Shown here: piece after piece, positions 5,566 through 60,527 of the stretch
How the letters are laid out: each line of letters begins with the position of its first letter
Numbering within the stretch: position 1 is the stretch's first letter
NCBI GenBank assembly: GCA_017694595.1
Contig: JADIMT010000080.1
Coordinates: forward strand, 1 to 60,527
DNA: 60,527 nt
Direction of reading: 5' to 3'
Origin: Candidatus Ornithospirochaeta stercoripullorum
GTDB taxonomy: Bacteria; Spirochaetota; Spirochaetia; Sphaerochaetales; Sphaerochaetaceae
Made by a program: the position numbers and the translations under genes
The notes under the pieces: generated by a model
Databases searched by the model: none
What the model saw: the letters and a program-made list of their open reading frames with translations, nothing else
What the model was told of the DNA's origin: nothing

Positions 5566-5567
5566 TC

Positions 5568-6804: not shown

Positions 6805-7224
6805 ATGCAGGTTTGTATCGTATATGCGGGCGCAGACCGGAATGGAGCTAAGCTGAAAACTCTTTCTGAAGGCTTTGCTAAGGGGCTTGAAGCCCAAGGC
6901 CATCAGGTGGATATCATCAGTGCATATGACGAAGGAACCAGACTCACGCTCTATGATTATGTCATCATGGGGGCGGAGCCTGTTTCTTTTTTCTCAGCGA
7001 AAATTCCCGATGCTGTCTCAAAATTTCTTGCACAGGCCGGTACTGTTTCAGGCAAAAGATGCCTTGCGTTCATTCCGTCTTGCCTGAGGAAAGGAAAAAC
7101 ATTGCAGAATCTGATGAAAGCTATGGAAAGGGAAGGCATGATTCTCAAGCTTTCCGAGATCATCAGAAAGCCAGATGAGGCGATGGCTATCGGAAAACGT
7201 CTCAATGTAGAGAGGAATAACTGA
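6805..7224 (+). CDS. Flavodoxin-fold protein, function unknown
   Basis: This 139-residue protein looks like a flavodoxin-like alpha/beta domain. It has an N-terminal strand with VCIVYAGADRNG where flavodoxins bind FMN phosphate, then alternating helices and strands, and the sequence DYVIMGAEPVSFFSAKIP at the position of the second FMN loop. The usual T-x-T-G-x-T phosphate loop is not clear, so FMN binding is uncertain. AAAGGGAG precedes the ATG. The stop overlaps the start of the foldase gene by one base, so they are translated together. I cannot name a function. Confidence 0.6.
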   Translation: MQVCIVYAGADRNGAKLKTLSEGFAKGLEAQGHQVDIISAYDEGTRLTLYDYVIMGAEPVSFFSAKIPDAVSKFLAQAGTVSGKRCLAFIPSCLRKGKTLQNLMKAMEREGMILKLSEIIRKPDEAMAIGKRLNVERNN

Positions 7225-15919: not shown

Positions 15920-16285
15920 GGGGGTGTTCTGGTTTCGACTGGCTTTGCCATGCCGTAGACTGCGGATCAAGCGCTGACTTGTAAAACCGGCACAAAAAAA
16001 TTAAATGCAAAGAAAGAAGACGAGTTCGTCTCTGACGAAGCATTTGCTCTTGCTGCTTAATCAGTTTTGAGCGGGAGACCTTGGATTAAGTCTCTGATCC
16101 ATTGCCTCCTTTACCGCAGGGGACTTGCCTTGGTCCATCTCACCGTGGATTGAGGGACACTCAGGTGATGCTGCACTTTTACGCCTGTCTCGCTGCTGAG
16201 AAGTGAGTAAGCCAGAACCGGGACTATATCCGTAGACGTTTATGGGTGGACTGTTAGGACGGGAGTTCGAGTCTCCCCACCTCCA
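15920..16285 (+). ncRNA. ssrA: Transfer-messenger RNA (tmRNA)
   Basis: This 366-base RNA rescues stalled ribosomes together with SmpB. The 5' end GGGGGTG pairs with CACCTCC at 16278-16284, leaving A16285 as discriminator. The T arm is GGGAG-TTCGAGT-CTCCC. The early segment GGTTTCGACTGG is diagnostic. The tag frame starts at GCA 16007 and ends at TAA 16060, encoding AKKEDEFVSDEAFALAA, whose hydrophobic ALAA end is the usual degradation signal. The CCA tail is not encoded: A16285 is followed by AAG. smpB lies 0.6 kb away on the other strand. Confidence 0.96.
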
Positions 16286-28600: not shown

Positions 28601-30206
28601 GCAGAGTGACGGGAAATACTCTTTCAAAGTGGATCTGCAACCTGTTGCGCTCTTCTCTGTCGATGGCGGATTAGGGGATGGAGCAATACGCTTCACGATT
28701 GACAGCTTTGAGATAAGCGTTGCTGACCTCTTCCTCACTCCTTCAATCTCATTCCTCTCTCCATCGCTGGCTAGGGGGGAGATCACAGCAAGGCAGGAAA
28801 GCACTGGTTGGAATCTGTTTGGCTATCTCATGGCTGATGAAGTCTCTTTTGATGTCTTCTGGATGCCGAATGAGAGAGTCATACTCCATAATCCGTATTT
28901 CCTCGTATGGGACAGTTCCTTCACCTCCATTGTCGATGACTGCACTGTATTGAATATGCAAACTTATGAAAGGATTCCTGGACGTGTTGGTCTGACGATA
29001 AATCTGGGAAGATCTCTTTCGATGGATGAATGGCGCGTCGATGTCTATGCTGATGATGATAACTGGATCGGCATCAGACTGCCTCTCACATCTTCTAATA
29101 TCGATATATGGGGAGATGTGATCGGAACACTCCACGTTGGACAGGGCAGTGATGGGGTTCTCTATCTCAATGGCGATTTGCACGCACGTGATCTGACTAT
29201 GTCAATCGGAATGGAGCCGATGCCAGAGTGGATGACAAGTGAGGCTGCTTCTTCAGCCACGGCTGCGACGACAGCTGACCTGAATCTTCTGCTGACTGAG
29301 AACGTCAAGTTCCTCTTCCCGCTCACAGGCGATCCTATCCTCCGCGCAGATCTTGCAGAAAACCAGAATCTCCGTGTCAGGGTTGATGACAAGGGCAATC
29401 TGGATGTCTCTGGTTCTCTCGATATACGTTCAGGAGAGATTTTCTATTTCCAGAAGAACTTCTATATCACTGAAGGAAACATCAGCTTTGCACGCGATCC
29501 ACTTGAAGCTTCATCGTTCAATCCAGTGCTTAACCTCAGGGCAAGGCTTAGGGATTTCGATGCAGATGGCAATAGCGTTGATATCTTCCTCGTTCTTCGA
29601 GACTCGACTCTCGATAACATCAGCCCGACATTCGAAAGCTCTCCGTCCAAGCCGCTTTCCGAGATCATGCAGATACTTGGACAGTCGATTCTGCCGACTT
29701 CCATCTATGGTGACATCACAGTCGGTTCGATGGTTTCGCTTGTCTCTGCCTCTGTCGATATCCTCTCCAGAATTGGCATCATCAGCTCTTCCAGGGAGGA
29801 TACCCTTGAGCAGTCGATTCGTTCATCGCTATCGCTCGATACGTTCTCGCTCCATACGAATATCATTGAGAACCTGCTTCTTGACACAGTCTCATATGCT
29901 TCATCGAATATCGATACGGAGCTCTCTCCGATGGCAAGGTATCTCGACGGGACAACACTTTACCTTGGCAAGTACATCTCTCCGGAGCTGTATCTGGAAG
30001 GCATGGTGCATCTCGATGCTGAGAATAATATTACAGAGAACAGACATACATTCCTTGCAGATGATCTCAATCTCGATATAGAGATCTCCTTGGAATGGAA
30101 TAATCCTCTGGCTGTATTCACTATCTTCACACGTCCTCAGAATGTCACTTTCTACGATCTCTTCGATTCATTTGGCTTTGGTTTTTCGAAGAGAATAGTC
30201 TGGTGA
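25662..30206 (+). CDS. tamB: TamB-like translocation and assembly module protein
   Basis: The 1514-residue protein has one N-terminal membrane anchor (about residues 7-31), a very long beta-rich region without Cys-rich or enzyme motifs, and a C-terminal DUF490/TamB domain. The latter contains LDVSGSLDIRSGEIFYFQKN, FYITEGNISFARD and LSEIMQILGQSILP. TamB proteins form a hydrophobic groove bridging inner and outer membranes and help outer-membrane proteins or lipids move. It lies directly before the BamA-type gene, an order also known in Borrelia, where the two proteins interact. The ATG lacks a ribosome site and lies close to a TATAAT. It ends with a Trp residue. Confidence 0.88.
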   Translation: MKYHSPLSVILISLAVLLVFAGVALFAVFSLGMTSPTLMITERLLSEMESMDSPISFSVESAERSFRGGFTFNDAEIGYNGEMIAHLESVRFHMGIWGMVRYLFTGSGRLDIEIDGGEISVPPLAVPEGGGGEGGESSIPSFLTEHDISLHVHDVSFSAFSFEADSLEFSAYLDWSDYGIRVDISMPELRREDGNSMIVAHDIAMTATCKERLSFSASVSSIEMAGDGYSMHLDSPVMRGETSLSFDDYSARLSFSSLSGSAGDVSFAVGRSSLRADEMGAELVLLSSSLDSGSYHVELGEADFSLSESTFEAALNQINADDGERELADIEFALFEYDIKNSSFSFSVPSLLSSAFLSPDGGFVINASQLLLGGKLGDESDFTFSGNVKAEADGSLLSGTGGIISASMKTRGTEIESADVEITDLHLPGIGESASVFVDYHGGVFSLDASYGEYAEIKGKTSEDGLAVRASYTSLPLSPFLPLVRAYIPVLTAYIQDETAVTGSFSADISKDMTGPVDFSIAFSDIAFNNLSFSLAASGTAMFNEDDVDIENISLITDWVRASYTGRISYRTRLPEGRFALSMTDSGYELFVAELELESEEEYVFSAEIPYFSSSYLRGSVNWSDEDVIGSEATLKMGDYYYPFALTVDFKENLILIENERLHARVLLGENIEGELVMDRFLLPVFREGLAQSYLDGMVEASFSFTEQKLSIDSDGFTLGSIGILPGTPDLTFSITGDNDSLSLHDLSISSDVFSELVGNIEIGYSSPSIAMYLSSSSGEALMLSILRSSDGMFSGLLRAGDFNLGRVGIDGMIGDINLTARAGSWEALSFSGSIRSFSSDMINNPASLLANLYIDRDEIVLSSLSYTTDNLSLRSDSSRYSSSAGLFEADFALSASISRADGPLPVEASANVSVELPAGENLSDAISTAIGSRLVGTRARIDTGKINLGNLMSIDERSLELVYTESGLSISGSLAEGYVQSDGKYSFKVDLQPVALFSVDGGLGDGAIRFTIDSFEISVADLFLTPSISFLSPSLARGEITARQESTGWNLFGYLMADEVSFDVFWMPNERVILHNPYFLVWDSSFTSIVDDCTVLNMQTYERIPGRVGLTINLGRSLSMDEWRVDVYADDDNWIGIRLPLTSSNIDIWGDVIGTLHVGQGSDGVLYLNGDLHARDLTMSIGMEPMPEWMTSEAASSATAATTADLNLLLTENVKFLFPLTGDPILRADLAENQNLRVRVDDKGNLDVSGSLDIRSGEIFYFQKNFYITEGNISFARDPLEASSFNPVLNLRARLRDFDADGNSVDIFLVLRDSTLDNISPTFESSPSKPLSEIMQILGQSILPTSIYGDITVGSMVSLVSASVDILSRIGIISSSREDTLEQSIRSSLSLDTFSLHTNIIENLLLDTVSYASSNIDTELSPMARYLDGTTLYLGKYISPELYLEGMVHLDAENNITENRHTFLADDLNLDIEISLEWNNPLAVFTIFTRPQNVTFYDLFDSFGFGFSKRIVW

Positions 30207-30298
30207 AGATGTTTGTTTTGTGAAGCCGCGTTTATAAGAGACTTTGCATATAGATGGAAATTGACCAATCTGCTAGTATTCACGCAGGAGATATGCCC

Positions 30299-32833
30299 AT
30301 GAAAATCACAGCGAGGAAGATTCTTCTCGTTTTAACTATACTGGTTTTATCTGCAGCAGCGCTTTTCGCCTCCGATGATGATGGAGTCTGGTGGGATGGC
30401 ATGAATATGACAACCTTCCGCTATAAAGGGCTTATGAATGTCAGCGAGAGGAGCGTGGATTCACTTCTTTCACCATATCTTGGACAGCCATTCTCGGATG
30501 CTGTTTTCTCTGAGATCATCAGTACGCTATATGCTGAACCTTGGCTCAATTACGTCTCTGCAGAGGCCTTGAGGGAAGGTGATGATGGGCATTTGGTCAT
30601 AGAGTTGACGTTCAGCGAGAATCCGATGGTCTCATCAGTGACAGTGGAGGGTGAGAGAAGAATTGGAGAGAATCCGCTTCTCCGTTCCCAGTCCATTGCC
30701 AAGAATGTCTTCTTCACGCCTTCAATGCTCTCGGTGAATGCAGATGCAATTCGCTCATACTACCTCGAGAGAGGCTACAGGGATGCCACTGTCACAGCTA
30801 GCTACAGCGAGGATGAGAGCACGAATACTGTCAGCGTTCTTTTCACTGTCAGCGAAGGCAAGCAGTACAAGGTTCGTGACATCCTCTTTTCAGGAATCTC
30901 CGGCCTGACAGCAAAGGATCTGACAGGCGTGATGACCCAGAAGAAGAGATCATTCTTCAATGCTGGAAATTTGATCATGACCAACATAGAGCCAGATAAA
31001 AGCGCTATCATCGCGCTCTATGGCGCCAAGGGCTATCCCGATGCCTCTGTCGTGAGCGTCGATGTCGTCTCCACAGGAGAAGAGGATGAGAATGTCATCT
31101 ATGTAAATCTTGAGTATACGATCTCAGAAGGGGATAGGTGGACAATCGGCACTGTGGCATTCAGCGGCAATGAAGTCTTCTCGAATGAGTCTATTGCAAG
31201 CCTGATCAATGTCGATACGGGGGATGCGTACAATGCTGAAGATATAGCTGCTATGCAGAATGCTATCAGTTCCCTCTATTATGACAACGGCTATATCCGC
31301 TCGCAGGTCATCTTCACGCCGCTTCGCGATGAGAGCACGCATACAATCAGCTACGATATACAGATATCGGAGGGTGAGCAGTCAGTTGTAGAGGATATCA
31401 TAATAACTGGACTGACAAAGACAAGGCCATATGTTCTCGAGCGTGAGATCACGCTCCATGTCGGCGATGTTTTCTCCCGTTCCGCACTGATACGAAGCCA
31501 GCAGAACATGATGAATACTGGACTTTTGTCGACAGTCAGGGCGGATCTCCTCTATGGAGAGACAGAGAATGGCGTCATCATTGAATTCACAGTGGAGGAA
31601 GGAAACCAGATGGAGCTTCAGTTCGGAGCCACATTCGGCGGTACTGTCGATGGGTTTCCCATTTCAGGCTTTCTCCAGTGGGCTAACAGAAATCTGGCAG
31701 GAACTGGTCGTGATCTCGCCATCTCCACGACATTATCTCCCGATACACAGTCTGTTTCTCTTTCACTCTCTGATGATTGGGTGGGGGACAGAAGATGGGC
31801 AAACTCCATCTCTCTCTCATTTGAGAGAAGCTATCGGGACAACACGCTGATGAAGAATCCGAACTCCGAGATGTTCGACGGAAGGGATGAGAACAAGGAG
31901 ACATTCCCTCTCGGTTACAACAGTGCAGATGAGTGGTATGCTACTGACAATCCTCTCTATCCATCGGATGCATATCTCATGGCTTATGATTACTACAGGA
32001 TCGCTCTTGGCTATACTACTGGATACACATTTGCTTTTGATCCCGGTTCGCTGACGCTCAGCGCAGGTATCTCAATAGGTATAAACCATGCTGTCTTCGA
32101 TGACTCCATGTATACGCCATATGAGGAGCTGATCTGGAAGTATCATCAGGATTGGCAGTGGTCCAACAGACTCACGCTCTCTGTCACATGGGATGGAAGG
32201 GACTTGAGGCAGAACACGACACGTGGCTATGTGCTCAGCGCATCATATACATATGCTGGCGGTATCCTGATGGGGCTTTCCAACTACAACAGGCTTTCGC
32301 TTTCGGGCTCTGTCTACCATTCGCTCTTCACTTACCGCGATGAGGAGGAGAGGCCATATAGCTTAGTTCTTTCCTATACAGGTTCTGTCTCCTTCATGTT
32401 CGATCAGTTCTGGGGCAAAGATGGAAAGTGGGGCTGGTATAACGCAAAGGAAGGCGCGACACGCTACGAGATGCTCTACATCGATGGAATGAACATCGGA
32501 AGAGGATTCGATGTCATCTACGACAAAGCATTCCTCTGGCATAATCAGATTGATCTGACTTATCCGATAGTCTATCAGATGGTCGCAGTTGAGGGCTTCG
32601 CATCTGCTACAGGCGTGACAGATGATATTTCCGATCTCTCTTCGTTCTGGAACATTGACTGGTATTTCGCTGCAGGCGTTGGACTGAAGATGCAGATTCC
32701 AGGATTCCCTCTCGGCCTTTACCTAGTTGAAAACTGGACATGGGACCAGCACAGGGGCTTTAGATGGGACTCTACAGGTATAGGCAATTCCGGCCTTAAG
32801 CTTGTACTTGCTATCACGACATCATATTATTGA
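30299..32833 (+). CDS. bamA: BamA-type outer-membrane assembly protein
   Basis: The 844-residue protein has a signal peptide (to about residue 23, ALFAS), about five POTRA domains (about residues 35-420) and a C-terminal surface-antigen barrel. POTRA features include YLERGYRDATVTASY, LYGAKGYPDASV and LYYDNGYIRSQV. The barrel starts near MELQFGATFGG. BamA folds outer-membrane proteins. It ends KLVLAITTSYY, with a C-terminal aromatic residue. ATG 30299 has AGGAG eight bases upstream. A TamA role is an alternative, but five POTRAs favour BamA. mutS begins four bases after its stop. Confidence 0.88.
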   Translation: MKITARKILLVLTILVLSAAALFASDDDGVWWDGMNMTTFRYKGLMNVSERSVDSLLSPYLGQPFSDAVFSEIISTLYAEPWLNYVSAEALREGDDGHLVIELTFSENPMVSSVTVEGERRIGENPLLRSQSIAKNVFFTPSMLSVNADAIRSYYLERGYRDATVTASYSEDESTNTVSVLFTVSEGKQYKVRDILFSGISGLTAKDLTGVMTQKKRSFFNAGNLIMTNIEPDKSAIIALYGAKGYPDASVVSVDVVSTGEEDENVIYVNLEYTISEGDRWTIGTVAFSGNEVFSNESIASLINVDTGDAYNAEDIAAMQNAISSLYYDNGYIRSQVIFTPLRDESTHTISYDIQISEGEQSVVEDIIITGLTKTRPYVLEREITLHVGDVFSRSALIRSQQNMMNTGLLSTVRADLLYGETENGVIIEFTVEEGNQMELQFGATFGGTVDGFPISGFLQWANRNLAGTGRDLAISTTLSPDTQSVSLSLSDDWVGDRRWANSISLSFERSYRDNTLMKNPNSEMFDGRDENKETFPLGYNSADEWYATDNPLYPSDAYLMAYDYYRIALGYTTGYTFAFDPGSLTLSAGISIGINHAVFDDSMYTPYEELIWKYHQDWQWSNRLTLSVTWDGRDLRQNTTRGYVLSASYTYAGGILMGLSNYNRLSLSGSVYHSLFTYRDEEERPYSLVLSYTGSVSFMFDQFWGKDGKWGWYNAKEGATRYEMLYIDGMNIGRGFDVIYDKAFLWHNQIDLTYPIVYQMVAVEGFASATGVTDDISDLSSFWNIDWYFAAGVGLKMQIPGFPLGLYLVENWTWDQHRGFRWDSTGIGNSGLKLVLAITTSYY

Positions 32834-48628: not shown

Positions 48629-48645
48629 CATATTGAGGAGTGGAT

Positions 48646-50301
48646 ATGGAGAAGAGGATAAAGTTGCCAATCGGAGTCACCGACTTCAGGGAGATCATAT
48701 CGAAGCGATGCTATTACATCGATAAGACCCATGCTATAAGCGAGCTTATCGAAGATGGTTCCCAGTCGATCCTCTTCACGCGTCCCCGCCGCTTCGGGAA
48801 GACGACGTTCCAGTCCATGCTCAGGGCGTTCTTCGATATAAGAGAGGACAACCGGGACATCTTTGACGGTCTCGAGATCATGGAAGACACTGTTGCGGTT
48901 GAGAACTGGATGAACAAGGTGCCAGTGATCTATCTCACACTTAAGGATGTTGATGGCCTTGACTTCGATTCAGCTTTCAACATGCTCAAAGGCAAGCTTA
49001 CAAGCCTCTTCCAGGACTATGATTTCATAAGCGTTCCTTCCGATGATGAGGAAGGAATGATATTCAGGAACATGTGTAAGGGAAGAGCAACAACGGGCGA
49101 TGCAAGCCGCTCGCTAGAAATCCTTGCAAAGCTTCTTTACAAGCATTATGGGAAGAAGGTGATCATCCTCATCGATGAGTATGATGTTCCTCTGGATAAA
49201 GCAGAGAAGAATGGCTACTACACGGAGATGCTTTCCTTGATGCGGACGATGCTCCTCTCGGTTCTCAAGGACTGCCCATATACGGAGAAGGGGATACTGA
49301 CAGGATGCCTGAGGATCTCGAAGGAGAGCCTGTTCACGGGGCTGAACAATCTCTCAGTCCATTCAGTCACAGGAGATGAGTATGCAGATGCATTCGGCTT
49401 CACAGAAGCTGAGGTTGCGAAGCTCTTGAAAGATGCTGAATTGGAAGACAAGGCAGGGATAATACAGGATTGGTATGATGGCTACAACATCGGCAAGGAG
49501 CATATATACACACCCTGGGATGTCATCTCATATGTCAACAGGTTGCAGGTGAACCGCGATGCAGAGCCTGAGAACTACTGGGCTAACTCGAGCGGCAATG
49601 ATGTGATAAGACGGCTGATAGACATCACAGACGCTGAAGTCGGGGATGATTATTCTTCGCTCATCGAAGGCAGGAGTATAAGGAAGAAGATAATCGAGAC
49701 GCTGACATATCACAATTTGTATTCATCAGAAGAGAATATCTGGAGCTTGTTGCTGATGACAGGCTATCTAACGCTAGCAGGTGGATACAATCCGAACGGA
49801 GAGACGGTGCTGAAGCTGCCGAATGAGGAGATAAGATATCTCTTTGCCTCGCTGGTCGATGAATGGTTCAAAGAGACGGTGAGGAAAAGCGACAGGAAAG
49901 GACTCTTTGAAGCGATCTGGAACGTTGATGCTGAAGAGCTGTCATCGGTGATAACCAGTTATCTGTTTGATACGATAAGCTACTATGACTACAGGGAAGA
50001 CTACTACCATGCGTTCCTAGCAGGACTGCTCTCCGGGGCAGGCTATACAGTCAAATCGAACAGAGAGACAGGATCTGGACGAGCTGACATCATCCTGCTA
50101 GATAAGCGGAACCGGCAAGTTGCGATCTTTGAGCTAAAGCGGTCAGAGTCAGAAGGGAAGATGGAGGAAGACGCAAAGAAAGCGCTTAGGCAGATAGAAG
50201 AGAGACGCTATGGAAGCGATCTGCAAGGCTACAAACGTATCATCCGCTATGGTGTGGCATTCTATCAGAAGGAAGCGCTTGTGAAGACTTTTCCTTCATG
50301 A
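48646..50301 (+). CDS. AAA-ATPase-like protein with PD-(D/E)XK nuclease domain
   Basis: The 551-residue product has an N-terminal AAA-ATPase-like part with Walker A RPRRFGKTTFQSM (about residues 44-56), Walker B VIILIDEYDVPLDKA and the conserved VTGDEYADAFGFTEAEV. A C-terminal nuclease-like domain follows with GRADIILLDKRNRQVAIFELKRS, matching the D...ExK active site. Proteins of this architecture are abundant in gut spirochaetes and Bacteroidetes; their role is unknown, perhaps defence or genome plasticity. ATG 48646 has GAGGAG five bases upstream; GTG 48640 is an alternative. A decayed copy of its 5' end follows at 50306. Confidence 0.85.
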   Translation: MEKRIKLPIGVTDFREIISKRCYYIDKTHAISELIEDGSQSILFTRPRRFGKTTFQSMLRAFFDIREDNRDIFDGLEIMEDTVAVENWMNKVPVIYLTLKDVDGLDFDSAFNMLKGKLTSLFQDYDFISVPSDDEEGMIFRNMCKGRATTGDASRSLEILAKLLYKHYGKKVIILIDEYDVPLDKAEKNGYYTEMLSLMRTMLLSVLKDCPYTEKGILTGCLRISKESLFTGLNNLSVHSVTGDEYADAFGFTEAEVAKLLKDAELEDKAGIIQDWYDGYNIGKEHIYTPWDVISYVNRLQVNRDAEPENYWANSSGNDVIRRLIDITDAEVGDDYSSLIEGRSIRKKIIETLTYHNLYSSEENIWSLLLMTGYLTLAGGYNPNGETVLKLPNEEIRYLFASLVDEWFKETVRKSDRKGLFEAIWNVDAEELSSVITSYLFDTISYYDYREDYYHAFLAGLLSGAGYTVKSNRETGSGRADIILLDKRNRQVAIFELKRSESEGKMEEDAKKALRQIEERRYGSDLQGYKRIIRYGVAFYQKEALVKTFPS

Positions 50302-51358: not shown

Positions 51359-52096
51359 ATGAAAACTAAGCGATCAGTCTTTTTGCTGATTCTTCTGTTT
51401 TTCATAGTTGGTGGTTTGTATGCTTATCAGCTATCACCGCTTAATGTTACGTTTGACCCGACAGGGGCCGGAAGCGCCAGAGTCTATACGATAGTCAATG
51501 ATTCTGATGAACCTATTGCCATCGAAGTCTCTGCAGAGCAGAGAATCATCGATATTGATGGCAATGAAGTCAATCAGGATGGCTCTGCATATTTCTCTAT
51601 ACAGCCGTCCAGGATGATTATCCGTCCTGATTCAACACAGCTTGTGCGCGTACAGTACCGTGGCCCGCAGACAGTTACCAGAGAGCTTTCATTCAGGATA
51701 ATCTCTGAGCAGATTGCAATGCCACGCGGTGCTCAGGATGCAGCCCAGGGCCAGATGATCTCTTTCCTCTTTGTCTATTCGACATCTGCATATGTACGTC
51801 CGACAAGGGTAGTGGAGAGCGTTACTCCGACTGTAACAAAGACAAGCGATGGCAAGCTTGAGATTGTCCTGGAGAACACTGGCAGTGTCCACCAGATGCT
51901 CAATAGCCTTGCTATTACGCTTACTGGTGATAATGGTGCTGTGTACACTCTTTCGGAAGAGGAAGTTGGACCACTATCGGGACAGAACCTGCTGACAGAT
52001 TCAAAGCTGAGGACAATCATTGAGATTCCAGAAGCTCTTTCTTCTTCTGAGAATATCACAGCGACAATCAGCTACGACTACACATATTCAGTTTAA
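51359..52096 (+). CDS. PapD-like periplasmic fimbrial chaperone
   Basis: The 245-residue product has a signal peptide (about residues 1-22, ending YAY) and two immunoglobulin-like domains typical of chaperones of the chaperone-usher pathway. Domain 1 shows LSPLNVTFDPTGAGSARVYT, SIQPSRMIIRPDSTQLVRVQ and RELSFRIISEQI, the pattern of edge strand A, the P-x-R strand and the E-x-x-YR block. Domain 2 follows from about residue 145. Such proteins hold subunits by donor-strand complementation in the periplasm. GGGAGG is upstream of ATG 51359. It is followed 24 bases later by the usher-like gene. Several family residues differ, so the subclass is unknown. Confidence 0.78.
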   Translation: MKTKRSVFLLILLFFIVGGLYAYQLSPLNVTFDPTGAGSARVYTIVNDSDEPIAIEVSAEQRIIDIDGNEVNQDGSAYFSIQPSRMIIRPDSTQLVRVQYRGPQTVTRELSFRIISEQIAMPRGAQDAAQGQMISFLFVYSTSAYVRPTRVVESVTPTVTKTSDGKLEIVLENTGSVHQMLNSLAITLTGDNGAVYTLSEEEVGPLSGQNLLTDSKLRTIIEIPEALSSSENITATISYDYTYSV

Positions 52097-52120
52097 ACAA
52101 AATCGTATAGGAAGACACTT

Positions 52121-55100
52121 ATGATGCCCAAAAATAAGAGGGGAATTATTAAGTATGCCCTCATGACCTTATTTTCTATTGCAACTGCAGCAGGAACCGC
52201 TGTCTTGGCTTTCCAGAAAAGCATGACAGGGAGTTCTGTTGTGCTGTTGTCTTCTGCAGTTCTTTTGGTATCATCCGCACTGCTCGGTGTTTCCATCGCG
52301 GATAGTTCGGATGATACGAAGAGAACGGCTCTTCTTGTCTTCTCATTTGGTGTTCTTGCCTTGTTCTGCGGTGCTACATGGATTTTGTTCTCCCAGAATG
52401 AAGAAAGCACAAGCACTGGGCAGAAAACGGAGATTATCACCCCCGCTGAAGATATCAGTAGTAATCTTCCTCCCAAAGAGAGCATAGAAGAGGCGTTCTC
52501 AGATTTTGAAAATAGTGAAGACGATACAGTCATTGCCTCATCTCCGACAGTCTCAGCAGATGTCCTTGTCATCGCAGAACCTGAGATCATCAATGTAGAG
52601 CCTCGTCTTCCAATGCAGCCAGAAGTCATTTCAGGCTCTTCCCTCATTCCTGAAGAGATGCTTGTTGATATCGTTCCGGCATGGCCAGAGAAACCTGCTC
52701 TGACAGTATCGACAGCAGTAATAGAAGATGTTGAAGCAAGACTTCCATATGCAAGCAATATCGATGTGCATACTGTAATTTTGCCAGCTGTTTATTACAT
52801 CGAACCAGGCATACCTGAAAAAGCAGAACTTACAGCTTTTGCAGAAGTTCTTCCTGAGGCAAGAATCATTGATATCGAGCCAAAGCTGCCTCTTCCTGGA
52901 AGCGTGCAAGTAAGCGCTGAGATTCTTCCTTCTTCCCCAGCTGTGGAAGCTGAAGTGACTGCAATCAGTACAGAGACCCCATTCGTGAGTGATATTATTG
53001 TCCGCACCCCGCATCAGCCTGTTCTTGCAGTAAGCACTGCTGAAGCGATAGATGTCATCCCAGCTGAAACGCCTTCTGAAGCGGAAGTTGAAGCTTACTC
53101 ATCCATCAAAGCGGAGCCAGAGATAATCGATATAACGATTAAAGCGCCAGAGATAGCTTTGATGAAGTCGGAGACAGAGCTTTCAACTGATATTCTGCCA
53201 CGTGTTCCAGCTGCTACTTCCGTTGGCAGTGCTACAACCATAACTGGAATAGAAACTGTGAAAGACATCGAGCCAAGACTTCCAGAGCATATTGAGCTTA
53301 ATGTATCGACTGAGATAGTCCCGGATGCTTTCATCACCAATATTGAACCAAGGGTTCCTGAGAAAGCTTCTCTTGATAGTACAACAGCCATAGCTGCAAA
53401 GGAAGCTTCAATCGATATAATGCCAAGGCTTCCAAAGCCTATTGAGCTCAGTGTATCGACTGAGATAGTTCCAGATGCTTCTATCATCAATGTTGAACCA
53501 AGGATTCCTGATTCAGCTCTGCTTAGTGCTGCTGCATCTGTTGCTCCAAGTGTCAGTGAAATCATAGTTGAGCCTGAAGTTGAGATGGCTGAACAAATCT
53601 CAGAAGAGGTATATGCAGAACCTGTTTCCGAACCAGCTGTAGATGATTTCTTCTCAGGTCTCTCTCCTGAAGAGGCTGAATTCTGGGCATCTTTCTACAT
53701 AGAAGGTGAGGATGAGCTTACACTTGCAGATGGTATTTACTACATGGATCTCATTGTCAATGATTCATATGTAGGACAAATTGAAGTTGAGTCTGTAGCG
53801 GAAAATATTGCAATCAGAAGCAGTGAGTTGGAAGCTTATATTTCGGATTCGATTATTGATGAACTGAAGGACTCCATATTTGCAACAGATGATAAGTATA
53901 TTCCTCTTTCATATCTGGAGGAGCTTGGTATCATGGCATCTGCTGATATCAACACATATGAGATATTCATTGATTTCAATCCCTCAGATATGCCTGTGCA
54001 GGTACTCAGCATCAGAGGCAATTCCCGCAGGAGCACATTCCGTCCGATCACAGGTGGCTTGATGCTTGATCCAGCTGTATTTGTGCTTAGGACTAACTGG
54101 GAGCTTTCCGGTTATACAAATTCATTCAGGTATTTTGATTGGCGTGATTCTTTGCGGTTCACACTCTCCTCGAGCAATACAGGAAGGATAGTCGATGTGA
54201 ATTTTAACTTCAGTTACTATCTGAACTTCACATTCTCTTCGATTAGTTTCCGCATGGGAACCTATAGGTTCTATAAAGATTTCAAAGATGCGATGATTCG
54301 TCTCTCTTGGGGTAATGTTTCTTCGGATGTCTTAAGTCCACAGGGCAGGGCTTTCGGTATAAGATTCGACAAGAGCTATATTTATGGTGACTCAAACGCA
54401 AAGCAGAAAAGCTATCTTGAGAAGATGCTTATCATCGACAAAGAATCGGAAGTCACTATCTACAATGAAGGGAGAGAGATATTCCGCCGTACGCTTGATC
54501 CGGGCAGCTATAAGCTTGAGGACTTTGTGCTCTACACAGGTGCTAATATCATAACGATACATATACAGCCTCTGGATGGATCAGCTCCGAGCGAGCAGAC
54601 AATAGAGATAATGTATTCAGGTTCATTGCTCCCTCCTGGCGAAGTACGATTCGGAGGTGCGTTCCTCATGGGGCGTGAGACTTCATCAGTGAAGAGTTCC
54701 GCTAGCGATGTTCTATCGCTTAAGATAGGAAGACAGTACCTTGAATATGATTGGAAGAATGCTGTTCTTTCAGGATATATAAAAGCTGGCATCTCTGATT
54801 CTCTTACTATCAGCAGTACGCTCGCATTGCAGAACTATCCGCAAGATGACAGAGGCTGGAACCCCAGGATGGCTCTCAATACAGAGCTTACACATGCAAA
54901 CATACTGGGAACAACACGATATAATCTGAATCTCGGGGAATACATGAATGAGCAGGGCAAGTTCGGTATTCCAAGAATCTATGCGAGGGTAAGCCACCAG
55001 GTCTCAACAGGATGGAATCCGATATCATCATTCAATATCAGCTTTACTTACTCAAACCCTGAAGAGACTGGAAGAGACAATGGACATCGGTTCTCGCTTT

Positions 55101-56275
55101 CAACAAGCCTTTCAGGAAGAATCGGGCTGTTCTCATGGAGTACAAGCCTCTCAGGTTCAATCTATTCTGATATTCCTGAAAATTTCTCGTGGAGCTGGGC
55201 AAACACGTTGAGCTTCTCTTTCTCTCGCAACTTCTGGCTGACTGGCTCTATGATGCTTGGAGGCAGCGGAGTAAATAATGTTCCTGTAGTCAGTGGAAGA
55301 GTATATGCAACTGTGAGATTCGGAGGCGGATCTGTATCAGCTTCTTCCGGATTCAGCGATGCGAGCATCTCTGCGAACTACAGTTCAGGAGCTCATTCAG
55401 TATCTGCAAGCATTGGTACAAATGACTTCACAAGGCTTTCAGACTATGATGTTGATGCTGATTACAGCTATAACGGCAAGTGGGTTGATGTCTCTGTTGG
55501 AGCGGGTACATCACTTGCATTCAATGATGGAAGTGCAAACTTCTCGCTTTCTACTACTACAGTCTTTGCAGATGGGCTTTTTGCAGTTGGGGCATATATT
55601 CCATCTAACTTCCTTCTTATAAGGCAGTATGATGCCTTGAAGGGCAACACTCTCTCCGTAGGCTCAGCTGGCTCTTCAAGGACAGATAGCCTTGATTCTT
55701 CGTTTGGTACGTCTGTATATACAGGTCTTTCATCATCTAGAGGAAACGCATTCAGCCTTTATAGCTCGAATGAGAGTTCCTTCAGTGGCACTTCGATATT
55801 TGATATAAATGTGCCTCCATCGGATTTATATGGCTATGTGCTGAGACTCAGCGCAGATGCCAAGTATGCTGTTTCAGGAACTGTAACACTTCCCGATGGT
55901 ACTCTTCTTTATAATGGTTCCTCGCCGCTTTATCAGTATTCTGAGGATGAGGATGGAACTGTTGTTCTGACTCCGACTGAAGACTATATCTTCACCGATG
56001 CTGATGGAAGGTTTACTGTCTCGCATCTCGTTCCTGGCCGCTATGCGTTTGATATCATGTTCGATTCAAGCTGGATACTTGCTGTCTTCACAGTTGAGGA
56101 TATCGAAGCATCCGTTTCTGATATCCAGATATTGCAGCAAGGGGGAATAAGCACGCCTGAAGCTGGCAGTATTCCTGATGTTTATTCAGCTATCACATAT
56201 TTTGATTTCGATACTGTCATGACCAGTGAGGAATTCTGGAGAATGCTTTATCCGGAATTTGAGGAGGCTATATGA
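52121..56275 (+). CDS. Usher-like outer-membrane pore with inner-membrane anchor and proline-repeat region
   Basis: The 1384-residue protein has three membrane helices near the N terminus (about residues 9-31, 38-60, 69-90) with positive charges placed for N-in topology and the rest outside. Residues about 150-490 are proline-containing repeats of about 25 residues, for example DIEPRLPEHIELNVSTEIVP. Usher-like regions follow: a small domain with YYMDLIVNDSYVGQIEVE (about 540), a barrel with many strands (about 640-1240), a plug-like FRRTLDPGSYKLEDF (about 788-803), and a C-terminal beta-sandwich starting VSGTVTLPDGTLLYNG (about 1250). Ushers assemble and export fimbrial subunits. AGGAAG precedes the ATG. 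An overlap of four bases leads into the next gene. Confidence 0.75.
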   Translation: MMPKNKRGIIKYALMTLFSIATAAGTAVLAFQKSMTGSSVVLLSSAVLLVSSALLGVSIADSSDDTKRTALLVFSFGVLALFCGATWILFSQNEESTSTGQKTEIITPAEDISSNLPPKESIEEAFSDFENSEDDTVIASSPTVSADVLVIAEPEIINVEPRLPMQPEVISGSSLIPEEMLVDIVPAWPEKPALTVSTAVIEDVEARLPYASNIDVHTVILPAVYYIEPGIPEKAELTAFAEVLPEARIIDIEPKLPLPGSVQVSAEILPSSPAVEAEVTAISTETPFVSDIIVRTPHQPVLAVSTAEAIDVIPAETPSEAEVEAYSSIKAEPEIIDITIKAPEIALMKSETELSTDILPRVPAATSVGSATTITGIETVKDIEPRLPEHIELNVSTEIVPDAFITNIEPRVPEKASLDSTTAIAAKEASIDIMPRLPKPIELSVSTEIVPDASIINVEPRIPDSALLSAAASVAPSVSEIIVEPEVEMAEQISEEVYAEPVSEPAVDDFFSGLSPEEAEFWASFYIEGEDELTLADGIYYMDLIVNDSYVGQIEVESVAENIAIRSSELEAYISDSIIDELKDSIFATDDKYIPLSYLEELGIMASADINTYEIFIDFNPSDMPVQVLSIRGNSRRSTFRPITGGLMLDPAVFVLRTNWELSGYTNSFRYFDWRDSLRFTLSSSNTGRIVDVNFNFSYYLNFTFSSISFRMGTYRFYKDFKDAMIRLSWGNVSSDVLSPQGRAFGIRFDKSYIYGDSNAKQKSYLEKMLIIDKESEVTIYNEGREIFRRTLDPGSYKLEDFVLYTGANIITIHIQPLDGSAPSEQTIEIMYSGSLLPPGEVRFGGAFLMGRETSSVKSSASDVLSLKIGRQYLEYDWKNAVLSGYIKAGISDSLTISSTLALQNYPQDDRGWNPRMALNTELTHANILGTTRYNLNLGEYMNEQGKFGIPRIYARVSHQVSTGWNPISSFNISFTYSNPEETGRDNGHRFSLSTSLSGRIGLFSWSTSLSGSIYSDIPENFSWSWANTLSFSFSRNFWLTGSMMLGGSGVNNVPVVSGRVYATVRFGGGSVSASSGFSDASISANYSSGAHSVSASIGTNDFTRLSDYDVDADYSYNGKWVDVSVGAGTSLAFNDGSANFSLSTTTVFADGLFAVGAYIPSNFLLIRQYDALKGNTLSVGSAGSSRTDSLDSSFGTSVYTGLSSSRGNAFSLYSSNESSFSGTSIFDINVPPSDLYGYVLRLSADAKYAVSGTVTLPDGTLLYNGSSPLYQYSEDEDGTVVLTPTEDYIFTDADGRFTVSHLVPGRYAFDIMFDSSWILAVFTVEDIEASVSDIQILQQGGISTPEAGSIPDVYSAITYFDFDTVMTSEEFWRMLYPEFEEAI
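52576..53590 (+). repeat. 25-residue proline-repeat region in the usher gene
   Basis: At least ten degenerate units of the pattern [DN]IEPRxPxxxxLxxSTxI are encoded. The last four are exactly 25 residues each. At DNA level, 53281-53385 and 53431-53535 are near-identical with a 150-base offset, so pairs of units duplicated recently. Confidence 0.75.
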
Positions 56276-56955
56276 AAAAAATCAATATATTCATTCTCAT
56301 GCTTCTGATTCACTTGTGTGTTTTTGCTGCTAATACGGCTGAGCTTAATATCAAAGCGTTTAAGACAGGTTTTGACTACACAAATCTTGTTATAAACGAT
56401 CGGACGACTCAGAATGACGTACCGCTTAATGGACAGGGAGAAATTGAGCTTAATCCTGTTCTTGATAGGCTTTTAGGCTCTACTACCGCCTCTGACAATC
56501 TGACATCTTATGTTATCTTTTCTTATCGTCTGGAAAGCAATCAGGTAGGAAACTTCACGCTGAATATCACTCTATCAGACTTGGAGAGACAGAATATAAC
56601 AGCTCCAGCAGATAATGATTCAATTGACGTGCTTTATCAGATTGGAAATTTCAATGAGGTGTTTGAAACTCTTGGTAGTGATGATTCATCACCATCAAGT
56701 TCTGTTGGTAATTCAGAAATCAAGGGACCTGGAAATACTGAAGGAAATAAACCAGGTGATGTTAGCCAACTGGCAACTGATTCACAGAAAGCTTCTTTTG
56801 ACATGACTTATAACGCAACATCTGACAGTGATTCAACCGTTCGTACCTGGATAGCAAGAGGTGCTGTCGGAATGATTATCGACAACTATCAGTACAACAA
56901 AGCCAATTACGGAAATTACAAGGCAATAGTGACGGTGACGCTGACAAGTAATTAA
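56272..56955 (+). CDS. Secreted subunit-like protein of the usher operon (1)
   Basis: The 227-residue product has a signal peptide (to about residue 19, VFA) and a beta-rich mature part with no cysteine pair. A Ser/Gly/Pro linker (about residues 141-165, around DDSSPSSSVGNSE) splits it. The end NYGNYKAIVTVTLTSN resembles the last strand of fimbrial subunits, where a GxYxAxVxVT pattern is common. It starts with a four-base overlap with the usher. I infer a fimbrial subunit or adaptor but no family was recognised. Confidence 0.65.
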   Translation: MKKINIFILMLLIHLCVFAANTAELNIKAFKTGFDYTNLVINDRTTQNDVPLNGQGEIELNPVLDRLLGSTTASDNLTSYVIFSYRLESNQVGNFTLNITLSDLERQNITAPADNDSIDVLYQIGNFNEVFETLGSDDSSPSSSVGNSEIKGPGNTEGNKPGDVSQLATDSQKASFDMTYNATSDSDSTVRTWIARGAVGMIIDNYQYNKANYGNYKAIVTVTLTSN

Positions 56956-56968
56956 TAAGGAGGAAAGT

Positions 56969-57625
56969 ATGAATAGATATAGAAAACTGAATATACTGTT
57001 ATTGTTATTTATTGTATTCTCTCTTTATGCTGTTCCTCAGCCAGATGTCTCCAGGGAAATTGTTTTGCAAGGCTCTTATGGAGAAGTTATGTCTATCAGC
57101 GTGGAGCCAATTGCAGCACAGACGCAGGCTTATCGTTTTGGTATGCCTTTTGATATCCAAGACATTAGTGTGCAATCATCTGCTGCATTAGGAAGACCTA
57201 TAGCACACTGGTCATTCTTGTCAAATTCATCAACGCCATTCTCTATAAATGTTAATGCTGAAAAGCTAACATATGATGGATCAATTGAAACAGCTGTACC
57301 TCTCGATTACTGTCTTACGTTCAATTATAACGTTTCATATTCAATCGATGCTGAAGAATTGTCATATTCATCCAGCTTTACTCATTCAACTGATGACAAT
57401 CCTAAATCCTATGCAATCACATATGTAAATGGCGAAGGCAAGCCTGTTAATTCTTCCGATATTGATCTTTCACAGCTGAGAGGAAGTGTTGATGGCACTA
57501 TATTCTTCAAATTCCTAGAAAACCAGGGAGATAAAACCAGTGAAGAAATAATCAGTAATGATGATCTCACTCCACCCGGTAATTACTTTGCACGTGTCAC
57601 ACTAACGCTGGAGGTGAACGAATGA
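56969..57625 (+). CDS. Secreted subunit-like protein of the usher operon (2)
   Basis: The 218-residue product has a signal peptide (about residues 1-21, LYA) and a beta-rich mature part ending PPGNYFARVTLTLEVNE, which again looks like the final strand of a pilin-type Ig fold. It has one cysteine only. AAGGAGG lies upstream of the ATG, the strongest ribosome site of the operon, so this may be a major subunit. It overlaps the next gene by four bases. Function is inferred from context. Confidence 0.65.
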   Translation: MNRYRKLNILLLLFIVFSLYAVPQPDVSREIVLQGSYGEVMSISVEPIAAQTQAYRFGMPFDIQDISVQSSAALGRPIAHWSFLSNSSTPFSINVNAEKLTYDGSIETAVPLDYCLTFNYNVSYSIDAEELSYSSSFTHSTDDNPKSYAITYVNGEGKPVNSSDIDLSQLRGSVDGTIFFKFLENQGDKTSEEIISNDDLTPPGNYFARVTLTLEVNE

Positions 57626-58962
57626 AAAGAATTTCTTTAGCATTGCTTATTTTCTGCTTAATTATTCAGCAAGCTTTCAGCAGTCAATTGTATCTTGCAC
57701 CAAACAATTCTATTACAAATATCAATATGAATTCTCCAGCTTGGAGTGATGAGAAGGCACAGGAAGATTATAATAATATACGAGATGACGAAGACTTATT
57801 TGCCCCAAACCAATACGTAGTAACAGGTGCATTGTATGGTGTTAAGGAAAGTAGTGATTGGTTTGGTGATTCGGATGAAGATAAAGAGAAGCGTTATGGA
57901 ATAGAAGTATCTGTTAGTAGCGATAGTTGGGATGGTAAATACTTCTGGTTTACATCTCAAAGCAATCCTGATTCAAAGCGTCCTTTTATTCTTCAGGCAA
58001 CATTCCAGAATCGTGATTTTGGATATGCCAGAAATGTTAGCCATAATCGCGAAGTATATACCCTAAATGGCGGTGACTCATTTGCTTCATATTATTTTTA
58101 TGATAGGGATGATTGGCTAGTTCTTCGTAATAGGGCCCTTCTTTTCGATATCGCGATTGTCCTTCCGGGAACAATAAATAATGGGGTGCTTACGCTTGAT
58201 GATGGTCGAACATATCCAATCGCTTCTGCTGATGATTACTCTGCAGATTTATCTGTGATACTCAGACTTGTCAAAAGAAATGGTGAAACAAATAATCCGG
58301 ATGGCTGGACAGGTCCAGAGGATTTGTCATTTTCATTTCCTATCTCTGGATTTTATGATCCGACAATAGATTCTCCAGGAACGATTACTGAAGCAAATAG
58401 TTCGTTGAATATTCATATGCTACCTAAGGCTGCAAATATCGATTTGCAACTAGATCAGGGGCAGAGCAAGCTTATACCAATTGCTGATCTCTCATATGCT
58501 GTTTATAACATAAAAGGCAACGCTGAAGATGTACAGATAAGCGATGACGATATTTTTCTGTTCCTTTCCGCAAGTTCAAATCCTTTTACTAAGAATTCGA
58601 GAGGTTTTGAATTTGTACATGAAGATGTTACTTCTGAAGAGCAGAAAAACAATCAGAACACAATAGGCTTTGATATAACAGCAATAGCAACTGATGAGTC
58701 CGGGCAAAATATAAAATTTGATGGGACAGATTTCCTGTCGGGTGATGGAAGTGTAAATAATCCTGCAAAGAAAATCACTACGACTCATCATGACGATACA
58801 ATTCAACATATGGATCCTCCATCATACAGACATTGGCATTCCTATGATGGGACACTGTATTTGACGCTTGATGATAGATCGATGATGGATGCTGGATATT
58901 ACAAGGGCTATGTTTACGTCCACGCTATTGTCAATGGAGATAATGTAGGGGGTTCTGTATGA
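57622..58962 (+). CDS. Largest secreted protein of the usher operon, possible tip adhesin
   Basis: The 446-residue product has a signal peptide (to about residue 20, FSS) and is about twice the size of the other subunits. The mature part is rich in Asp, Asn and aromatic residues, for example YYFYDRDDWLVLRNRALLFD. It has no recognised domain. The extended size could fit a two-domain tip adhesin, with the C-terminal part (MDAGYYKGYVYVHAIVNG) similar in pattern to the other subunits' last strand. Its DNA looks more AT-rich than the core genes. Overlaps of four bases on both sides tie it to the operon. Confidence 0.6.
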   Translation: MKRISLALLIFCLIIQQAFSSQLYLAPNNSITNINMNSPAWSDEKAQEDYNNIRDDEDLFAPNQYVVTGALYGVKESSDWFGDSDEDKEKRYGIEVSVSSDSWDGKYFWFTSQSNPDSKRPFILQATFQNRDFGYARNVSHNREVYTLNGGDSFASYYFYDRDDWLVLRNRALLFDIAIVLPGTINNGVLTLDDGRTYPIASADDYSADLSVILRLVKRNGETNNPDGWTGPEDLSFSFPISGFYDPTIDSPGTITEANSSLNIHMLPKAANIDLQLDQGQSKLIPIADLSYAVYNIKGNAEDVQISDDDIFLFLSASSNPFTKNSRGFEFVHEDVTSEEQKNNQNTIGFDITAIATDESGQNIKFDGTDFLSGDGSVNNPAKKITTTHHDDTIQHMDPPSYRHWHSYDGTLYLTLDDRSMMDAGYYKGYVYVHAIVNGDNVGGSV

Positions 58963-59528
58963 TTAAGAGAATTATTCTGACTCTCTTCGTTTTTATATGT
59001 TTTGTTACTTGTCTTTTTGCATTTGATGAGAGATATCAGGAGCTGCTTTTCACTGTGACTATTCCTGAAGATTATGGTGTATTCAAGCCAATTGATGCCT
59101 TGTCATTGGATAAGTTTGTGTTTGAGATTGATGATCCTGATATCCTCCTTACTTCTGATAATCTCGATATAGGCACAATGTTTGACAACACAGGAAGCTT
59201 TGACTTCACGCTTCTGTACTATGGCAATCAGGAAATGCAATATGATGCTCGGATTGTCGTCAATACAGGAATGGGCTGGTATATGGAGAAGAATAATGAA
59301 TTCTATTCCATACCGATTTCTGTCACATACTCAGAACCTTCTGATATAGGAGAAGGCATCACTGTTGATAAATATGAAGTTAATGATGGTGTAGGTGTTC
59401 ATATTCCAGCAACTGGGCCAAGAAGGGGCGACTCTGTTCTCACGGTCTCCCTTGAGTGGGAAGATGACTTTGATGCGCCAGCTGGTGAGTATCAAGCTTC
59501 AATCGGCATAGCTGTGGAGGCGATATGA
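58959..59528 (+). CDS. Secreted subunit-like protein of the usher operon (3)
   Basis: The 189-residue product has a signal peptide (to about residue 21, LFA) and a beta-rich mature part ending PAGEYQASIGIAVEAI, the same last-strand pattern as its neighbours. No cysteines are seen in the mature part. It overlaps the upstream and downstream genes by four bases. No family recognised; inferred to be a minor subunit or adaptor. Confidence 0.62.
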   Translation: MIKRIILTLFVFICFVTCLFAFDERYQELLFTVTIPEDYGVFKPIDALSLDKFVFEIDDPDILLTSDNLDIGTMFDNTGSFDFTLLYYGNQEMQYDARIVVNTGMGWYMEKNNEFYSIPISVTYSEPSDIGEGITVDKYEVNDGVGVHIPATGPRRGDSVLTVSLEWEDDFDAPAGEYQASIGIAVEAI

Positions 59529-60085
59529 TGAGGATTATGAGCTTATTAATCATCCTTGTCTTGCTTTTTGCGGCTCTGCCAGCATTTTCTGCATACATTC
59601 CCGGGCCGAAAAGGATGACAATCACATTTAATCTTTCCGGCTTTTATGATGACAGTCTGTTCGGATTCACCGAAGAGATACCAACTGACTATGATTCAAT
59701 CTCGAATATTGATACATGGAGCATGTATGTCCGGGAAGTTGAGGAATTTGAATACACGCATGGAAACCAGAGCGTCTATGCATGGTGGAGAATCTCTATT
59801 CCTTCGAGATACTCATTAAGCTTATATGCAGAAGATAAGCTTTCTTCTGATTCCGGTGCTTCAATGGATTGGCAAGTAAGCTGGGAGACTGAAGATGAAA
59901 CAGTAACTATTGGTGGCGAGAATGGATATGGAATTGGGAATAGCAAAGAACTATACCGCAATTCATCCAACTTGTTTTCCAGAGAGATTGGATATAAAGA
60001 ACTTACCTTTGATGTGGATATCCCTGATAACGCTGTACCTGATAACTACACAGGGAGGCTGGTCATGAGATTGGCGACATTATAA
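59525..60085 (+). CDS. Secreted subunit-like protein of the usher operon (4)
   Basis: The 186-residue product has a signal peptide (about residues 1-19, AFS) and a mature beta-rich part ending VPDNYTGRLVMRLATL. It overlaps the previous stop by four bases. It is the last gene before a 176-base gap with several hairpins, so it probably ends the main transcript. No cysteines and no recognised family. Confidence 0.62.
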   Translation: MMRIMSLLIILVLLFAALPAFSAYIPGPKRMTITFNLSGFYDDSLFGFTEEIPTDYDSISNIDTWSMYVREVEEFEYTHGNQSVYAWWRISIPSRYSLSLYAEDKLSSDSGASMDWQVSWETEDETVTIGGENGYGIGNSKELYRNSSNLFSREIGYKELTFDVDIPDNAVPDNYTGRLVMRLATL

Positions 60086-60117
60086 GGAAGCTCTTTATTA
60101 GGTTTTGTTGATAATTC

Positions 60118-60250
60118 CCTCTTAGGAGGGTTGGGAAAGGGGATCGATCAGGATTTGCTGAGTAGCTGGATAATAAGCTCCCAGTTCAGCTGATGATAAT
60201 CCTGGTGGATGAGCAAATGACTCAGCCAGAGATTCTGGCAAATCAAATTG
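60118..60250 (+). promoter_or_regulatory. Multi-hairpin leader before the last gene
   Basis: CAGGATT (60149-60155) pairs with AATCCTG (60198-60204). Inside, GCTGA pairs with TCAGC and CTGG with CCAG. A second perfect hairpin, GCCAGA and TCTGGC (60225-60239), follows, and CCCTC/GAGGG lies before it. No U-run follows. It could be a leader regulating the next gene or an mRNA end stabiliser. Confidence 0.4.
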
Positions 60251-60261
60251 GAGGAAAACAA

Positions 60262-60527
60262 TGAAGCGTTTTATTGTTTTTGCATTGGTACTGTCTGTTG
60301 TTCTGTTCTCAAGCTTTGCAGCGACATTGACATTAGCAGAGTTTACAGAGATTAATGAGGCTAGCTCTAATCAAGCTGGCGTAAAGCTTAATTTTACTAT
60401 CGATGAAGATACAGGTTCTTTCAAGTTCGGCTTCAGCAGCTCAGAAGCTCATGAAGCTTATGCATCTGATACATTCAACCTTGCATATTCAGAGGGTAAG
60501 GTTACAAATACTGAACCTCTTTATGTC
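60262..60527 (+). CDS. Secreted protein of the usher region, 3' end cut by window
   Basis: The frame is open from ATG 60262 to the window end (88 codons seen). It starts with a signal peptide of about 20 residues (MKRFIVFALVLSVVLFSSFA) and continues with a beta-like NQAGVKLNFTIDEDTGSFKF. GGAGG is seven bases upstream. Its signal peptide and position suggest another exported subunit, possibly the major one since it has its own leader. The C terminus is outside the window, so this cannot be tested here. Confidence 0.65.

Follow-up and report, generated by a model that had tools for sequence, protein, structure and literature searches.

A putative chaperone-usher operon of archaic affinity in Sphaerochaetaceae spirochaetes

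The window analysed here is a 60,527-nucleotide stretch of Candidatus Ornithospirochaeta stercoripullorum (contig C57 of a 2.04 Mb, 83.5% complete assembly, G000). Judged from its sequence, the window ends in an operon for a chaperone-usher system of archaic affinity, with a possibly anchored usher and many subunit-like genes, which in related genomes lie unlinked from the chaperone-usher pair. The pathway very probably serves to export pilin-like subunits, which it would polymerise into an adhesive fibre on the spirochaete surface. One account (PMC4654587) reports archaic chaperone-usher systems from Proteobacteria, Cyanobacteria and Deinococcus-Thermus, and limits the classical and alternative systems to beta- and gammaproteobacteria. 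Among the matches listed in the open-licence literature, no chaperone-usher system in spirochaetes was recognised by title or abstract, which is weak evidence of absence. The initial annotation of this DNA had proposed a chaperone-usher-like system in a probable spirochaete, and the host was borne out; it missed the archaic affinity, the distribution of the system across the family and the long extension at the N-terminus of the usher.

The genes for the chaperone, the usher, the subunit-like proteins w6 to w10 and a contig-cut gene form an unbroken run on the plus strand (51359-60527). The gaps between them are 24, 13 and 175 bp, the last preceding the final gene, and the remaining neighbours share a 4 bp overlap, in keeping with the tight operon that had been claimed. 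The contig end falls inside the operon and leaves the last w10-type gene incomplete, with five complete subunit-like genes and one cut. Homology was assessed with alignments of the chaperone (A1) and the usher (A2), both of which include rows from other genera and families, and with window-type profiles of 20 sequences (18 of the genus group including the window and two of genus g12), in which the usher is represented by its last 880 amino acids (aa). Profile-to-profile matches were judged against reversed-sequence controls, and those of the usher also against unrelated barrels. The four archaic reference systems, from one cyanobacterium and alphaproteobacteria, are so labelled because PMC4654587 allows only archaic systems in these groups; a spore coat U gene is annotated as well in the Mesorhizobium reference record.

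The window chaperone matches PapD_N of Pfam at 25.0 bits (cut-off 23). The window-type chaperone profile matched the four archaic chaperones at 99.8% (E 1.7e-27, 226 columns; reversed control 0.2%) and reached 59% over 149 columns with seven classical chaperones. A1 matched a single Leptolyngbya protein annotated as a chaperone at 100% over 220 columns, and EcpB at 94.1%. When the PDB was searched with the chaperone family profile, only three distinct sequences appeared at E<=0.1, which are EcpB (7.7e-5) and two of CsuC (0.016 and 0.017). In the CsuC alignment, R113 of the window protein corresponds to Arg89, and I134, F136, F138, Y140 and S141 correspond to Val110, Phe112, Met114, Tyr116 and Ser117. 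According to PMC4654587, Arg89 of CsuC is the carboxylate anchor and a hallmark of the non-classical type, and the donor residues run from Val110 to Tyr116. This arginine is found in all 30 rows of A1 and in 51 of 53 sequences of a wider set (48 spirochaete, four archaic and EcpB), in which the proline at window position P83 is invariant (53/53); the archaic chaperone of Novosphingobium US6-1 has no such arginine in its alignment row. By these alignments the protein is a two-domain PapD-like chaperone of the non-classical type, and the PapD-like chaperone of the initial annotation holds.

The usher-like barrel protein claimed beside it is likewise upheld. Its identity rests on family profiles because its own Pfam matches are weak (PapC_N, E 0.014), and the Pfam search of the window protein gave no PF00577 match. 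Over 712 columns, the window-type usher profile matched the four archaic ushers at 99.8% with E 2.4e-27 (1.0% for the reversed control), and it matched seven classical ushers at 54% over 365 columns. A2 matched a single Leptolyngbya protein annotated as an usher at 99.9% over 754 columns and the seven ushers of E. coli K-12 taken together at 98.2% (E 3e-14, 694 columns, FimD 76-838); the single unrelated barrels LptD, BamA, FhuA and FepA gave <=0.6%. Single FimD also matches A2 at FimD 294-381, a stretch at about aa 765-851 of the window protein which we take to be the usher plug domain. PF00577 is matched at E<=1 by 10 of the 31 members of A2 (best 2.3e-8), and in the genome search the window-type ushers of G451, G001 and G014 match it at 4.4e-6, 4.0e-4 and 4.3e-4, below the cut-off. 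A PDB search with the usher alignment returned no chain at E up to 0.1, and the single-protein searches of Pfam, NCBIfam and the PDB, part of them made with the chaperone and the usher only, were too weak to decide the usher and yielded no match above the cut-off for the subunits. The profile matches support an usher with N-terminal, barrel, plug and C-terminal domains. The weak Pfam matches of the window usher itself, together with a weak autotransporter match in one of the 31 usher rows (E 0.0063), could point to a different secretion system (type IX, autotransporter or TonB-dependent, for example) that merely resembles the chaperone-usher pathway. The length and specificity of the match to ushers led us to discard these other systems; with the match to PapD-like chaperones and the controls of both, it makes such a resemblance extremely improbable.

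In a set of 392 Spirochaetota genomes from 166 genera, A2 matches 39 genomes from 15 genera. These include 29 of the 36 genomes listed for the family of the window and 10 in other families, one of them a weak partial match. Among the sampled genomes, 36 of 47 others of the genus have the usher, as do 8 of 12 from the remaining genera of the family and 3 of 40 from other families. PF00577 finds eight of the 392 genomes, two of them above the cut-off, so ordinary annotation is likely to overlook this usher. A first scan of genome contigs with the single window usher found no relatives.

Outside the family, 13 compact operons with an usher were collected (L052-L054, L168-L175, L180 and L181). All 13 carry a homologous usher of 786-898 aa, and a chaperone is labelled in 11. 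A 310-350 aa protein of cluster c5 lies directly after the usher in 11, and in six the chaperone is immediately preceded by a 151-215 aa pilin-like protein that also belongs to c5. In L168 the chaperone matches PapD_N (PF00345) at 40.5 bits and the usher matches PF00577 at 59.5 bits, both above the cut-offs. SCPU (PF05229) was matched above the cut-off by the long proteins of L052 (46.3) and L173 (26.8) and below it by that of L168 (13.5), these being the three tested, and by none of the five short proteins tested. Over 131 columns, the short proteins align at 98.8% with the C-terminal half of their long counterparts. By these matches the compact operons show the pilin plus two-domain plan of archaic pili. 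This plan and the Pfam matches above the cut-off tie the divergent window-type system to the known archaic one. Window-type and compact ushers match each other at 100% (E 1.5e-49). With the profile matches, the single annotated proteins and the conserved gene order, the operons of L168, L052 and L173 bear out the chaperone-usher reading of the initial annotation. Two compact operons vary in gene content: L171 has two chaperone genes (5552-6310 and 7096-7839), with a subunit-like gene between them, ahead of the usher, and in L175 (7546-15838) a single chaperone and a single usher are surrounded by six pilin-like proteins, two of them long and four short. In a tree of ushers, which is weakened by long branches and uneven composition, the 15 Sphaerochaetaceae ushers form one clade (100/100) that joins the 12 compact spirochaete ushers and three archaic ushers at 87/57. 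The seven classical ushers stand apart (100/98) with the long-branched usher of Mesorhizobium, and EcpC falls, on a long branch, on the spirochaete side.

The chaperone gene was used to collect further loci; the 80 named here are the best of 108 found by searching genome contigs with the chaperone alignment. The usher lies within 200 bp downstream of the chaperone in 77 of these 80; in the other three, two have no usher next and one has no labelled chaperone. Window-type loci number 21, namely the window, 18 other loci of its genus group and, from genus g12, L041 and L176. By label, 19 of them have the genes in the order chaperone, usher, w6, w7, w8, which answers the survey for the same gene order that had been suggested. 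In L176 the places of w6 and w7 bear w10-type labels. w8 is present as a single copy in 20 of the 21 by label and in L176 by cluster, and w9 is present in 17. Locus L056 has an altered subunit order and two 142-aa chaperone pieces, one before the usher (4-427) and one at the end of the stretch (13887-14312), which suggests a rearrangement or an assembly fault.

The subunit-like proteins were compared with signal peptides removed, since the values looked stronger with them left on; the genome searches and the labelling of open reading frames with subunit alignments included them. A C-terminal strand motif ([YF]x[small or D/N]x[hydrophobic]x[hydrophobic or T] within the final 22 residues) is present in 197 of the 219 subunit-like proteins of the 21 window-type loci, compared with a mean of 29 and a maximum of 41 in 200 shuffles. 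The G.Y.[small] motif occurs in 125 of the 219 (shuffled mean 7.6, maximum 15). The initial annotation had listed at least five small secreted proteins with such a last strand; the motif stands, and w8 departs from the description, as at 446 aa it is not small and its motif stops short of the C-terminus. The N-terminal alternation of hydrophobicity is 1.90 compared with 1.56 in shuffled sequences (sd 0.03). Against the spirochaete pilin profile, which itself matches archaic pilins at 96.9% over 135 columns, w7 reached 91.7% over 148 columns. The w10-type proteins matched Sphaerochaeta-type pilin-like proteins at 95.1% over 101 columns. For w9, a match of 96.4% over 107 columns was obtained with unlinked clusters of a related genus, one of 62.5% over 114 columns with the compact-operon pilins, and 78.8% against the pilin profile when it was pooled with the related-genus clusters. 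Reversed controls of the w7, w10 and w9 comparisons were <=0.3%. The pilin match of w6 is confined to the last strand (64%, 29 columns). No pilin relationship of w8 was found in profile comparisons with spirochaete and archaic pilins (best 35% over 67 columns; <=15% in a later comparison set). Pilin ancestry is supported, via intermediates, for w7 and the w10-type proteins, moderate for w9 and weak for w6; w8 is, from its size, a candidate two-domain tip subunit.

Subunits diverge faster than the chaperone and the usher: between the window and L031 they share 48-66% identity, compared with 84% in the chaperone and 78% in the usher core. Such divergence, with the 11-24% identity to w10 of 45 of the 48 w10-type proteins aligned to it and the 7-16 subunit-like genes per operon in 20 window-type relatives (several of these loci run beyond the stretch examined; 3-12 genes per locus are labelled w10), would fit an alternative in which the usher and the chaperone export small proteins as a non-fibrous coat or short oligomers and the diverse subunits are separate surface proteins. 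In known chaperone-usher systems, in contrast, subunits are linked into polymers through strand exchange. The C-terminal strand is conserved here (197/219), and the compact operons of relatives have the usual short pilin and two-domain protein, so a coat of this kind is unlikely.

Under the fibre reading, the subunits, which have signal-peptide-like starts, would be exported by Sec. The chaperone would grip the C-terminal carboxylate of each subunit with R113 and lend its G1 strand (I134, F136, F138 and Y140), the N-terminal domain of the usher would take the chaperone-subunit complex, and strand exchange would join the subunits into a fibre that exits through the usher barrel. Sequence comparison shows homology of the chaperone and the usher over most of their length, synteny and pilin homology of part of the subunits. 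By analogy with the known pathway, strand exchange, a fibre, adhesion and the roles of w8 and the variable subunits may be expected. Several results weigh against this reading. A PF00345 search of the own genome gave no match, although the window chaperone itself scores 25 bits, and a PF00577 search of that genome gave none either. A2 matches single E. coli ushers at only 7.8-89.6%, and the reversed controls of A2 with the E. coli ushers (17.4%) and of the window-type with the compact ushers (24.9%) are not near zero, which means that barrel composition alone gives some signal, far below that of the true order. The N-terminal donor strand is visible only as the mean excess of alternation. Direct matches to archaic pilins are weak (w9 52%, w10 36%, w7 35%, w6 1.3% and w8 0.1%), the Sphaerochaeta-type pilin-like set alone reaches 65% against them, and the related-genus clusters that match w9 reach 7% against the pilin profile. 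The window subunits have no Pfam match above the cut-off. The Pfam searches, of the kind foreseen in the initial annotation, were positive for the chaperone, weak for the window usher and negative at the cut-offs for the subunits. SCPU was not matched by the five window subunits or by 49 w10-type rows in Pfam, and a PDB search with the w10-type alignment gave nothing below E 0.08 (lectins; AbpX at 0.33).

Related genomes have subunit-like genes in clusters of their own, apart from the chaperone-usher pair. The pair is followed by no subunit-like label in 17 further loci of the family; one of the family loci, L051, has a 203-aa gene before the pair with a weak match in the w9 search (E 3e-4). 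Eight hand-picked genomes were surveyed for unlinked subunits. The w10-type alignment matches seven of them (G314 has none), over most of the profile in G424, G449, G384, G398 and G388 and over the length of a signal peptide only in G049 and G358. The labelled subunit-like genes number three in L211, five in L214 (with one extra weak match), eight in L215, nine in L217 and four in L218; L212 and L213 have one each, and L216 has one and a weak match. L218 holds w8 and w7 alongside two w10-type genes. No chaperone or usher label was found in the L211-L218 stretches at E up to 0.01. Both arrangements occur in genus g12, where G058 has a separate pair (L044) alongside a window-type operon (L041). 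A search of the own genome did not recover the missing part of the operon; further matches of the A3 profile span positions 1-43 to 1-68 only. The c25 gene before the pair in four Sphaerochaeta-type loci was considered as a subunit and rejected, as it seems from its sequence to encode a TetR-type regulator; downstream of the pair, the genes of those loci look, from their sizes and order, like a V-type ATPase operon. Sphaerochaeta halotolerans 4-11 (L118) carries a chaperone-usher pair, which makes the system testable, and a pilus would be a possible way for such spirochaetes to hold on to surfaces.

The usher of the window has a long region ahead of its core. By hydropathy, three hydrophobic segments lie at about aa 12-31, 34-60 and 69-91, followed by a linker rich in E, I, P, A, S and V, in which no tandem repeat was found at the DNA level. 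The residues ahead of the core number 260-521 in the 21 window-type loci, 129-214 in the 17 other family loci and 16-107 in the 13 compact operons, in which the starts are uncertain. Between the window and L031, identity is 76% in the first 100 residues, 43% in the linker and 78% in the core. From hydropathy and composition, the extension may tie the usher to the inner membrane via a flexible linker that spans the periplasm. We tentatively propose, at somewhat less than an even chance, that the Sphaerochaetaceae usher is a two-membrane machine, with inner-membrane segments, a long acidic proline-rich linker and an outer-membrane pore, and that subunits from unlinked clusters feed it in related genomes. 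We know of no usher like this; if it is real, the assembly platform would be held beside the Sec exit or would sense the load of the fibre, and ushers could no longer be viewed solely as free-standing outer-membrane platforms.

The alternative, which we put at close to an even chance, is that the extension is not a tether and that its hydrophobic part is an odd or cleaved signal peptide, with the linker as a periplasmic tail or serving another purpose. The evidence for an anchor is crude hydropathy, and a test for AxA did not separate the ushers (5/21) from signal peptides in the window-type loci (5/22 chaperone open reading frames and 37/219 subunits). Six of the 21 window-type ushers have an even number of hydrophobic runs, which would place the linker on the cytoplasmic side if all runs were membrane segments. 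Within the first 110 residues, the longest uncharged run has a median of 23 in window-type ushers and 22 in other family ushers, in contrast to medians of 14 for compact-operon ushers, 14.5-18 for chaperones and 16 for subunits, and the ranges overlap (16-27 and 10-25 in ushers, 8-31 in subunits). Against the alternative stand these medians and the three hydrophobic segments in a region that is 76% identical in L031.

Table 1. Features of the chaperone-usher operon, with positions in the window
Feature	Position	Strand	Size and basis
Periplasmic chaperone	51359..52096	+	245 aa; PapD_N 25.0 bits (>23); 226 columns to archaic chaperones
Usher	52121..56275	+	1384 aa; family profiles vs archaic and E. 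coli ushers
Usher N-terminus, candidate inner-membrane anchor	52121..52405	+	aa 1-95; hydropathy
Usher linker	52406..53665	+	about aa 96-515; composition, imperfect EPRLP-type repeats
Usher core	53684..56275	+	aa 522-1384; aligned with FimD 76-838 of 878 and Leptolyngbya usher 59-857 of 860
Usher plug-domain region (presumed)	54413..54673	+	about aa 765-851; aligned with FimD 294-381
w6, subunit-like secreted protein	56272..56955	+	227 aa; position in relatives, signal-peptide-like start, C-terminal strand
w7, probable pilin-like subunit	56969..57625	+	218 aa; match to spirochaete pilin profile
w8, candidate two-domain tip subunit	57622..58962	+	446 aa; size
w9, putative pilin-like subunit	58959..59528	+	189 aa; matches related-genus clusters
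w10, first of variable subunit series	59525..60085	+	186 aa; Sphaerochaeta-type pilin-like matches
Second w10-type gene, contig-cut	60261..60527	+	A3 profile E 2.4e-11, positions 1-88

Elsewhere in the window, a gene for a TamB protein (25662-30206; PF04357, 65 bits) is followed by one for an Omp85 protein with POTRA repeats (30254-32833); the translocation and assembly module (TAM) is reported to aid usher folding (PMC5717340). Ahead of the operon, 48640-50301 encodes an AAA-ATPase-like and PDDEXK_9 protein (PF09820, PF08011), relatives of which lie near the operon in L034, L037 and L040 (cluster c19). A transfer-messenger RNA gene is located at 15920-16285, with the tag AKKEDEFVSDEAFALAA. 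Scans for promoters and terminators were at chance (26 vs 23.4 expected and 7 vs 6.5 expected), and no flagellin match (PF00669) was found in the own genome, the only one searched and 83.5% complete, with no spirochaete among the named positive controls.

Compared with known systems, the window operon resembles the classical FimC/FimD pathway in the plug region and the domain order of the usher, and the window-type profiles reach 54% for the usher and 59% for the chaperone, in contrast to 99.8% with the archaic proteins. To the alternative pathway it is linked by EcpB, the best PDB match of the chaperone profile; EcpC differs, with 7.8% alone and a very long branch. The arginine and the donor strand are common to the window chaperone and the archaic and alternative pathways, and by themselves do not separate the two. 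The compact spirochaete operons have an usher homologous to that of the window and differ in its length of 786-898 aa and in the pilin-like gene before the chaperone. The archaic systems (Csu of Acinetobacter, and those carried on plasmids in Leptolyngbya sp. BL0902 and Novosphingobium) share with the window the chaperone-usher pair, the arginine and the usher core. Unlike in these systems, the window usher starts with an anchor-like region and continues with a linker of up to about 420 aa, and the subunit genes are many and all follow the usher. Subunits with an SCPU domain are typical of the archaic (sigma) pathway, and those of the window have no SCPU match; for this reason the window operon is not assigned as a sigma system, and that pathway is named only as the nearest to it.

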